Shown: one piece after another, positions 5,293 through 40,253 of the stretch
Numbering within the stretch: position 1 is the stretch's first letter
How the letters are laid out: every line of letters begins with the position of its first letter
NCBI RefSeq assembly: GCF_001695855.1
Contig: NZ_MBSS01000001.1
Location: forward strand, 1 to 64,000
DNA length: 64,000 nt
Origin: Ensifer sp. LC163
GTDB lineage: Bacteria; Pseudomonadota; Alphaproteobacteria; Rhizobiales; Rhizobiaceae
Direction: 5' to 3'
Program-made: the position numbers and the translations under genes
Notes under the pieces: generated by a model
What the model saw: the letters and a program-made list of their open reading frames with translations, nothing else
Database searches by the model: none
What the model was told of the DNA's origin: nothing

Positions 5293-5396
5293 CTACAGCG
5301 CCGCGCGTCTTATCAGAGGCGCAAAGGTCGCTGTAGCACTTTGAATTGCTGCATGTTTTTATCCTTAAATCGAATGCGATTTAAGGAAACATGCAG
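5293..5396. repeat. Rhizobial intergenic palindromic repeat, family 1, copy A
   Basis: Two adjacent palindromes. The first (5293-5336) begins CTACAGCG and ends CGCTGTAG and contains an inner CGCGCGTC/GGCGC stem. The second (5349-5396) begins CTGCATGTTT and ends AAACATGCAG around TCCTTAAATCG/CGATTTAAGGA. The same two-palindrome unit recurs at 29762-29863 and 40148-40253, and the first palindrome alone recurs at 36393-36437. It resembles the mosaic intergenic elements known in rhizobia; I cannot assign it to a named family by eye. Confidence 0.85.
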
Positions 5397-5416
5397 TAGG
5401 CGACGAAGGAAAAAAC

Positions 5417-29356: not shown

Positions 29357-29767
29357 TCAAAACACCGCCAGCAGCAGCGCCCCGACAGCAATGAACGCAA
29401 CCCCGAGCCAGTTCAGCAGGTTGAGCTTCTCGCCGAGGAACAGCACGCCGAAGATGGCGACCATGACGATCGACAGCTTGTCGATCGGCGCCACCCGCGC
29501 CGCATCGCCGAGCTTCAACGCGCGGAAGTAGGCCAGCCAGGAGGCGCCGGTGGCAAGGCCGGAGAGCGCCAGGAACAGCCATGTCCGGCCCGGGATTTCC
29601 GAGGGCTTCTGCCATTGGCCGGTTGCCGCGACGATGCCGGCGAGCACGAAGAGGATGACGACGGTGCGGATGAGCGTCGCGAAGTCGGAGTTGATCTGTG
29701 CAACCCCGACCTTGGCGAACACCGCCGTCAAGGCCGCGAAAGCGGCCGAAAGCAGCGCCCACTGCAT
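29357..29767 (-). CDS. Half-size EamA-type transporter
   Basis: A 136-residue protein with four membrane helices matching one EamA repeat (LRTVVILFVLAGIVAATG; APIDKLSIVMVAIFGVLFLGEKL). Full EamA permeases have two repeats, so this one must dimerise as small multidrug-resistance-type proteins do. Its ATG (29765-29767) lies inside the edge of a palindromic repeat (29762-29863), and no good ribosome binding site lies beyond the hairpin. It follows cobO on the same strand; a link with cobalamin is not shown. Confidence 0.75.
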   Translation of the reverse strand: MQWALLSAAFAALTAVFAKVGVAQINSDFATLIRTVVILFVLAGIVAATGQWQKPSEIPGRTWLFLALSGLATGASWLAYFRALKLGDAARVAPIDKLSIVMVAIFGVLFLGEKLNLLNWLGVAFIAVGALLLAVF

Positions 29768-29863
29768 GATTCCTTAAATCGGCATCGATTTAAGGACAAA
29801 ATCATGCAGAACTCTAAGTGCTACAGCGACCTTTGCGCGTCCAAGGGACGCGCGGCGCTGTAG
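29762..29863. repeat. Rhizobial intergenic palindromic repeat, family 1, copy B
   Basis: Same two palindromes as copy A in reverse order: CTGCATGAT...ATCATGCAG around TCCTTAAATCG, and CTACAGCG...CGCTGTAG around GCGCGTC. The left end provides the start codon of the EamA-type gene. Confidence 0.85.
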
Positions 29864-35596: not shown

Positions 35597-36121
35597 TCAA
35601 CCCTTCATTTTCAGCGGCAAACCGGCCGCGACAAAGTAAACTTCCGCAGATTTCTCCGCAACGATCTGGTGAAGCCGGCCGGCATGGTCGCGGAAGTCGC
35701 GGGCCATGCGGTTCTCGGGCACGATGCCGAGGCCGACTTCGTTGGAAACAAGGATCAGGCGCGCCCGCGCCTCAGGCAGAAAGGCGGCCAGGGCGGCGAA
35801 CTCCGCCGCCATGTCGCGTCCTTCCATCATCAGGTTGGTAACCCACAGCGTCAGGCAGTCGACGAGAACCACGCGGTTTCCGTCATCGATGCGTGTCAGC
35901 AGCGAAACGAGATCGAGCGGCTCCTCATGCGTCGTCCAGCCTTCGCCGCGCCTCGCCCGGTGATGGTCGATGCGCTCGCGCATCTCGTCGTCCCAGGCAC
36001 GGCCGGTCGCGACATAGTGCATGTTTAGCCCCGAGGCTTCGACGAGCCTTTCGGAAAAGCTGGATTTGCCGGAACGGGCACCGCCGAGGACGAGAACCGG
36101 CCCGGCATTGGAATTGCTCAT
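35597..36121 (-). CDS. cobP: Adenosylcobinamide kinase/guanylyltransferase CobP
   Basis: A 174-residue bifunctional enzyme phosphorylating adenosylcobinamide and transferring GMP to it. The P-loop is [28 protein letters not shown] and [17 protein letters not shown] are family blocks. It is the first gene of cobP-W-N-O, following a long cobalamin riboswitch, so it should be repressed by adenosylcobalamin. Confidence 0.95.
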
Positions 36122-36229
36122 GTGCGTTGCGGCCTCATGTGCTTGGTAGCGAATTCGAGCGGCAACAGGATTTCACCGCGCCTAAGGCGCGTTCGGGAAA
36201 CGATCTATGAGCCAAGACAACCTCCGTGA

Positions 36230-36700
36230 TGGCGTGGGAAGCGGGCTTCCCTTCGGGCGGAATGCCCCTGTCGGACGGCAGGTCTCCTGGCTCACGGCGT
36301 CACGGGTCCACCGCATCGTGCCCCGCGTTATGACGCGAACACCGATGCCTGGGCCCGAACGGCCCGCCTCACCTTCCCGGCGCTTTCCGGTGCCACAGCG
36401 AACCTTTGCGCGTCGTCTCCGACGCGCGGCGCTGTGGGCGGTTTCGTGAAAGGCGGACGATTCGTAGAAGAAGAGGCGTCCAACCCGGCTGATCACGAAG
36501 CCACGCCAGTGGCTTTTCCGACTGATTTCCAAACCACCTGCGATTGCCCCATGCAATCGAACGGAAGCCGGCCTTCAGCCCGATGGCGAACCCTGACCGT
36601 TCTACAGTCGCGGGGTCGGCTGCGATAAGGATGCCCGATTTGGGTCCATCCGTCACATTCCCAATTATTCCCCCGCATCGCCACGATCCGGGGAAACCAT
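36230..36700 (-). ncRNA. Cobalamin riboswitch upstream of cobPWNO, with an embedded repeat
   Basis: On the minus strand the conserved elements follow in order: GGGAATGTGACGG (near 36650-36662), GCCGACCCCGCGACTGTAG (near 36602-36620), AAAGCCACTGGCG (near 36502-36514), CCGGGAAGG (near 36372-36380) and the B12 box AGCCAGGAGACCTGCC (36278-36293). The total span of about 420 bases is roughly twice the usual aptamer. Between the ACTG element and GGGAAGG lies a 45-base copy of the family 1 palindrome (36393-36437). After the B12 box, GC-rich complementary segments could form the expression platform before cobP. Confidence 0.9.
36393..36437. repeat. Rhizobial palindromic repeat, family 1, copy D (inside the riboswitch)
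   Basis: CCACAGCG pairs with CGCTGTGG, and inside it GCGCGTCG pairs with CGACGCGC, with the AACCTTT/GG internal bulge seen in copies A to C. Only the first palindrome of the two-part unit is present. Confidence 0.85.
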
Positions 36701-37010
36701 CCAACATCCGATGATTAGGAAGCGGGCGCACCAAAGTCAATCGACGCGTGCGACACGCCACCCATCGAGATGCGGCACGCGACAATTCGCCAGCATTCAG
36801 TCGCACATGCCACCAATCAAGGCCGGGGCGCAAAGACACCCTGGCTCCGAATGCGATCGCGAAAGTTGTGCGGGCGCGGAGAGGTTTCCCGCGATACGAA
36901 CTCGATCTCAGGAAACGGAGGATATTCCGCAGCAAATGAAGTATATTTTAGCAATACAAGATATTTCGACAAAGTAATCGACAAAGCGACTTCGTTTATC
37001 CGGAAGGCAA
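36701..37010. other. Intergenic region between the riboswitch and the cyclase-like gene
   Basis: About 300 bases with the promoter of the cob operon and the upstream region of the divergent plus-strand gene. No gene is supported; the last 80 bases are AT-richer. Confidence 0.35.
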
Positions 37011-40016: not shown

Positions 40017-40147
40017 CAAAACGCCTTCTTTCCGGAGCCGGACAGCCAAACCGCCTTCGAACTCGATTTCAGCGCGCCGGCGTCCCGCCGCTGCTGCATT
40101 CTACGGCGCATGGCGCCCTTGGTTCAACGGCGCGACATCCCGACCCT

Positions 40148-40253
40148 ACTGCATAATTCCTTAAATCGGATCCGATTTAAGGATGAAATTATACAGCGAG
40201 TTTAAAGCGTTACAGCGTCCTTTGCGCGTCATATATGACGCGCGGCGCTGTAG
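40148..40253. repeat. Rhizobial palindromic repeat, family 1, copy C
   Basis: Palindrome CTGCATAATTCC...GGATGAAATTATACAG followed by TTACAGCG...CGCTGTAG. The cobQ frame runs into it and stops at 40229-40231, so the last codons of cobQ (YSAARHI) are repeat sequence. Confidence 0.85.

Follow-up and report, generated by a model that had tools for sequence, protein, structure and literature searches.

The leader of the cobP-cobW-cobN genes of Ensifer sp. LC163 holds, inside the peripheral arm of a cobalamin riboswitch, the first palindrome of a repeat that is dispersed through the genome, and the same site is empty in some close relatives. Comparing the leader with its orthologues, we consider it quite probable that a RIME-type repeat was inserted a single time into the internal loop of this arm before the sampled species diverged, and that it persisted as a tolerated hairpin, with losses in about five lineages. 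The features on which this reading rests lie in a stretch of 64,000 nt, hereafter the window, and are listed in Table 1.

Table 1. Features of the window, with position, strand and the basis of each assignment
Feature	Position	Strand	Basis
Complete two-palindrome repeat element	5293..5399	+	pattern/coordinates
Complete two-palindrome repeat element	29759..29863	-	pattern/coordinates
cobP (adenosylcobinamide kinase / phosphate guanylyltransferase)	35597..36121	-	NF004469, E 4.5e-67
3' core GCCAGGAGACCTGCC and strand thought to close the aptamer	36269..36291	-	3' end of RF00174 match here in L017
Native peripheral arm, insert in its internal loop	36360..36519	-	64 leaders aligned (54 insert-free, 10 filled)
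CGCCGGGAAGG: 3' strand of proximal helix and conserved element	36372..36382	-	alignment
Inserted stretch, 51 nt, absent from empty alleles	36390..36440	-	filled/empty alignment; coordinates
Palindrome 1 of the dispersed repeat, predicted extra hairpin	36393..36437	-	pattern match; predicted fold
Apical hairpin GGACGCCTC..CTACGAATCGTCC of native arm, strongly conserved	36455..36481	-	arm alignment
Variable stretch V1 of the riboswitch	36520..36578	-	mean pairwise divergence 0.287, 10 filled alleles
5' half of cobalamin aptamer core, up to CCCCGCGACTGTAGAACGG	36597..36709	-	RF00174 28.0 bits, below gathering; alignment
Sigma-70-like promoter TTGACT-18-AATCAT, start of aptamer	36711..36740	-	consensus scan, 9/12 positions
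Complete two-palindrome repeat element	40146..40253	-	pattern/coordinates

The cobP leader and the repeat copy within it

The minus strand from 36709 to 36269, about 440 nt upstream of cobP-cobW-cobN, is a cobalamin riboswitch. Its core elements follow one another in the order that the original prediction had given (GGATGGTT near 36702, CCCCGCGACTGT from 36615, CCACTGG from 36512, GGGAAGG at 36378-36372 and, as the last one, GCCAGGAGACCTGCC at 36291-36277), as in the conserved core of this riboswitch class, and the gene context is also that of the class, since the protein families encoded downstream are of the CobP/CobU type, CobW and CobN. The covariance model RF00174 gave no match in the whole window at the gathering score; at a lower threshold it matched the leader at 36716-36568 with 28.0 bits (gathering 31.5; E 4.4e-05), closing the 3' side early, and for this reason the riboswitch call rests on the lower threshold and on the relatives. 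In one insert-free relative (L017, genome G004) the model spanned 406 nt with 49.7 bits and ended on GAGCCAGGAGACC; the 3' end of that match, GAGCCAGGAGACCTGCC, is the element found at 36291-36277 in the window. The proposed RF00174 check on the minus strand thus yielded a sub-gathering score in the window itself, and its support for the placement of the core comes from the full-length match in the relative. The leaders orthologous to this one pass the gathering score in seven of the 16 same-genus genomes (four filled and three empty) and stay below it, like the window copy, in the other nine; since filled and empty leaders occur among those passing, and some insert-free leaders fail, the insert is not the sole cause of the low score. 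The model under-detects this long cobP subtype, the full aptamer being matched only in G004.

The promoter scan found a single candidate, placed where the aptamer starts, while shuffled sequences gave 0.3 on average; TTGACTTTG is invariant in 22 aligned leaders. A sub-threshold match to the Brucella sRNA family RF02570 at 36739-36806 on the minus strand (22.6 bits, gathering 112) is probably due to chance. Between the riboswitch and cobP, a reading frame of 26 codons with a TTG start after GGAGG lies at 36135-36215 on the minus strand; a frame opening in this manner (GGAGG, then TTG/GTG/ATG-GC) occurs in 75 of 82 leaders, ending at most 18 nt from the cobP start in 70 of them, and it is possible that it encodes a leader peptide or is a target of translational coupling. 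Six Rhizobium-type leaders (L057, L061, L076, L087, L089 and L095) have an aptamer-to-cobP stretch longer by about 150-230 nt, in which the short frame runs into a recurring LDSCDKHRNEG-like sequence; this suggests that another dispersed repeat lies downstream of their aptamer.

The 45-nt palindrome had been predicted at 36393-36437, and it is indeed found exactly there, fitting GCGCCGCGCGTC-N6-GACGCGCAAAGG on the minus strand with 0 mismatches. Searched with up to three mismatches, this pattern has three matches in the window, against 0.00 expected from 100 shuffles. The related copies that had been noticed at 5293, 29820 and 40210 turned out to be parts of three complete elements of 105-108 bp each, while the riboswitch copy consists of palindrome 1 only. 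A repeat finder run on 36150-36800 listed no repeat, because its 9-base seed exceeds the uninterrupted arms of the palindrome. The right half of palindrome 1, searched across the 16 genomes with at most two mismatches, gave 10 to 273 matches in each, compared with 0 to 1 for the reversed control; the highest number is that of the window's own genome. From the latter, 30 repeat loci were fetched, 29 of them in register, and the second palindrome was recognized by eye in 28 but not in L157; around 20 of these 30 copies, Rfam gave no match at gathering. Filled riboswitch sites occur in genomes at both extremes of the copy-number range.

We take this dispersed two-palindrome repeat to be of the RIME1 type, the Rhizobium-specific intergenic mosaic element. 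RIME1 was reportedly described by Osteras et al. in 1995 as a unit of about 108 bp that contains two palindromes. Both palindromes are present in the other three window copies and not in the riboswitch copy, which nevertheless is a copy of a dispersed, multicopy palindrome 1 and is intergenic, lying in the leader upstream of cobP (36121) and being overlapped only by mechanical reading frames; as described below, its site also occurs both occupied and empty. Most filled alleles carry CCACAG/CTGTGG where the repeat family has CTACAG/CTGTAG, that is, a two-sided change of one pair, and one extra T with respect to the family; in the insert of G010 the 5' side reads CTACAG and the 3' side lacks its end. 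The repeat copy beside cobN (29759-29863; L175) is present in G000, G002 and G013, in G002 without the second palindrome; therefore, palindrome 1 alone can remain at an occupied site.

Filled and empty sites in a native arm

CobP was found in all the 16 same-genus genomes, and all 16 leaders have the riboswitch landmarks in order. If the slot is taken as the stretch from the apical hairpin to CGGGAAG, it measures 73-77 nt in ten genomes, which are filled (G000, G001, G002, G003, G009, G010, G011, G013, G014 and G015), and 24 nt in six, which are empty (G004, G005, G006, G007, G008 and G012). The leader alignment confines the difference to one position, and the riboswitch elements persist both with and without the insert. 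Whether the stem is absent from some relatives had been proposed as a check, and these six empty sites show that it is.

To these 16 leaders we added 80 loci from a scan of named genomes; once 10 duplicates and four loci without landmarks (L082, L098, L103 and L106) had been dropped from the resulting 96, 82 leaders remained, the slot being measured in 79 of them (the short-form L099-L101 were left out). A loose search, which also misses the decayed copy of G010, matched neither insert nor repeat in the 66 leaders outside the 16; two of these, L034 and L104, are named Ensifer, but the cobP-cobW tree places them with Sinorhizobium rows. The exact filled-site pattern, which misses filled sites with changed flanks, occurs in seven of 394 family genomes, all of the same genus. 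Judging by match length, which the model can shorten, no second insertion was found in the other RF00174 matches of the 16 genomes. The idea that a mobile repeat has been inserted in a regulatory RNA as an extra stem is supported in part: there is a dispersed repeat in a riboswitch, and its site is empty in some relatives.

The other part of that idea, according to which the repeat accounts for the unusual length of the aptamer, is not supported: the length is mostly native and the insert contributes about 51 nt of roughly 440. The distance from ACTGT to GCCAGG is 323 nt in the window allele, about 269 nt in the insert-free L008 and 99-103 nt in L099-L101 (Oricola, Phyllobacterium). The long arm is older than the insert, because it occurs in the 68 insert-free leaders (of 82; the ten filled ones, L086 and L099-L101 were left out) used for the consensus fold.

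The arm itself was aligned from 54 of 60 distinct insert-free arms together with the ten filled ones, the arm pattern having missed 12 of the 82 leaders. Its two helices flanking the insert covary. In the 63 distinct rows, the proximal helix CTGGCG/CGCCGG is paired in 356 of 378 cells (94.2%, against 84.2% when shuffled) and the distal helix TTCGTGA/TCACGAA, counted after shifting one misplaced alignment gap, in 416 of 441 (94.3% against 83.7%); versions of the arm helices slid out of register are paired in 24-57% of cells. No covariation was found in the apical helix GGACG/CGTCC (100% paired, 100% shuffled), where pairing is uninformative because the helix is nearly invariant. The apical hairpin motif was found in five of 297 genomes of the order; all five belong to the window's family, which was represented by 13 genomes in the sample. 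Inspection suggests that the CCTC loop of this hairpin could pair with the GAGG that follows GGGAAGG.

The insert lies on the 3' strand, with the distal helix on one side of it and the proximal helix on the other. Its outer helix has a mean predicted probability of 0.79-0.95 in eight of the ten filled alleles, those with the exact motif; of the helix values, only these outer-helix figures were used, because the motif look-up may catch other copies of a motif elsewhere. Energy folds of the whole leader vary widely from one allele to another, whether or not the insert is present; they do not demonstrate that the core is preserved. Based on these data, we suggest the following scenario. A RIME-type repeat would have been inserted once into the 3' strand of the internal loop, before the divergence of the sampled species of the genus. 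The inserted RNA, probably folding as an independent, self-contained hairpin, would have converted the internal loop between two helices into a three-way junction, and the ligand-binding core and the aptamer-to-cobP stretch would have been left unchanged. The repeat would most likely have been tolerated because it folds on itself at a junction that is distant from the binding core; since the slot tolerates stems, the riboswitch may well have kept working, presumably with a ligand response that the insert leaves unchanged. The hairpin would then have been kept under mild constraint in ten sampled species and lost at little cost in about five lineages.

Constraint, origin and reuse of the slot

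The comparisons of rates of change were made on the topologies of the rpoB and cobP-cobW trees, pruned to the ten filled alleles. At 142 four-fold sites of cobP and cobW 1.14 changes per site were counted, and in the variable stretches V1 and V2 the values were 1.72 and 1.66; for the insert, measured together with three columns of its flanks, the value was 0.54 (Mann-Whitney p = 0.0007 against the four-fold sites). The corresponding mean pairwise divergences among the ten filled alleles are 0.109 in the insert and 0.236 at the cobP four-fold sites. Within the insert, the loop and the 3' strand account for five changes in 33 sites, and the left linker and the 5' strand for 24 to 26 in 21. G000 and G009 carry the same insert sequence across 53 columns, in spite of differences at 46 of 162 four-fold sites. 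This slow change, the few changes in the loop and 3' strand and the identity of these two inserts are what would be expected if the insert had been co-opted, its sequence or its stem taking part in the folding or regulation of the riboswitch, so that filled and empty alleles would regulate cobP differently. We regard such co-option as possible but rather unlikely. Indeed, the insert changes faster than the native arm (0.08 changes per site; p = 0.0007), it has been lost in about five lineages and is decayed in G010, G013 and G015, and in the ten filled alleles no covariation was found inside it (93.2% of cells paired against 92.6% when shuffled, no two-sided change); the lowest pairs of its inner stem are broken in several alleles. 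Furthermore, the division between its two sides was chosen after the data had been seen, and the C-to-U changes of the 5' strand, which retain G-U pairs, may explain part of the asymmetry. As the pairs of the insert lack covariation, despite a rate of about half that of the four-fold sites, co-option is possible rather than demonstrated.

A broader version of this idea is that a mobile palindrome has been domesticated, the hairpin being under selection, chiefly in its loop and 3' strand, and tuning the B12 response of cobP-cobW-cobN in the species that keep it, and that riboswitch arms may grow by capturing ready-made hairpins, a thought prompted by the unrelated stem that the same slot holds in other rhizobia. 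We put it forward tentatively, and find it doubtful as a whole.

A second question concerns the way in which the insert came to be distributed as it is. The diagnostic string CAAAGGTTCGCTGTRGCAC, searched with at most one mismatch, was found in nine of the 16 genomes, once in each at the cobP leader; the sole further match, in G009, is another sequence, and the allele of G010, the tenth filled one, is decayed. The alignment and these searches show one insert subtype that is specific to the cobP leader, and such a locus-specific string suggests that the insertion is old and happened once, about five losses having come later. Six changes are required to explain presence and absence on the cobP-cobW tree, which included six outgroup rows, and this number equals one gain plus five losses; the rpoB tree, with the in-group only, requires five. 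In both trees the filled alleles are mixed with the empty ones and several branches are weak, and for these two reasons the spread of the insert by homologous exchange of leader alleles, in place of one insertion with losses, remains a live rival, to which the identical inserts of G000 and G009, found in different clades, also lend weight. However, the filled alleles retain the flanks typical of their clades, for instance T...A or A...T beside the distal helix, and the variants of the insert differ between clades. On balance, exchange seems to us unlikely, and we infer that the empty sites arose by loss from a single insertion.

A stem in this slot is not restricted to the window's genus. Among the other 63 long-form leaders, the slot measures 51-53 nt in 16 and 19-25 nt in 47; those 16 (Rhizobium, Pararhizobium, Rhizobiales) hold an unrelated hairpin, typically GATTGCG-GTCA-CGCAATC, from which it follows that the slot accepts other stems. 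The pattern of this hairpin was found in eight of ten such genomes, in one place each, at the cobP leader, and we rejected it as a dispersed repeat. Hairpins thus seem to have entered the slot at least twice; because the slot is reused, a stem there is not remarkable per se, and the remarkable part is its origin from a repeat in the window's genus. The original prediction had named an unrelated stem of equal length in all relatives as the sign of a native stem, and what we observed is such a stem in part of the long-form leaders and none in the 47 others. It is highly improbable that the extra stem of the window is a native variable stem that resembles the repeat, with no insertion, as the unrelated single-place hairpin of the other rhizobia might lead one to think: the stem of the window agrees with palindrome 1 of a repeat far more abundant in every same-genus genome than its reversed control, and both in those 47 leaders and in the six empty ones of the same genus the slot is too short for such a stem.

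Comparison with known systems

The origin of the variable peripheral arms of riboswitches is hard to observe. Filled and empty alleles in close relatives, a known source repeat and an unrelated stem in other rhizobia provide a natural comparison with and without the hairpin, which makes it possible to measure how a captured hairpin affects ligand affinity, RNA stability and folding; the soil bacteria concerned belong to a genus used for vitamin B12 production (PMC9157374).

The S. meliloti cobP or cobPW leader is listed as a cobalamin riboswitch in two papers (PMC2245857, PMC2573895). The window leader shares with the RF00174 class the ordered core elements and the position upstream of cobP, and differs from it in the long native arm and the repeat insert, nine of the 16 same-genus cobP leaders scoring below gathering. 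With RIME1, the repeat shares the length of about 105-108 bp, the two palindromes and the many copies in the genus, whereas the copy in the riboswitch is reduced to palindrome 1 and is part of a structured RNA.

A review of bacterial MITEs considers the formation of riboswitches by these elements conceivable and mentions potential T-box motifs in BOX elements (PMC10969869). In the pneumococcal trp operon a BOX element lies between two T-box riboswitches; the likeness is that of a small repeat co-transcribed with riboswitches that appear still to be working, and the difference is that BOX lies between two riboswitches, whereas the window repeat lies inside one aptamer (PMC3049150). Among the literature matches listed, consisting of titles and abstract openings, with most subscription papers outside the search, no report of a repeat inside a riboswitch aptamer was found; both the repeat type and the riboswitch class are known, and their combination appears unreported in the literature searched. 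Repeat insertions in other structured RNAs include the Rickettsia palindromic elements and the repeats in cyanobacterial RNase P RNA. These resemble the window insert in being short repeats tolerated in peripheral regions of a functional RNA, and differ from it in that the RNAs hosting them are not riboswitches.
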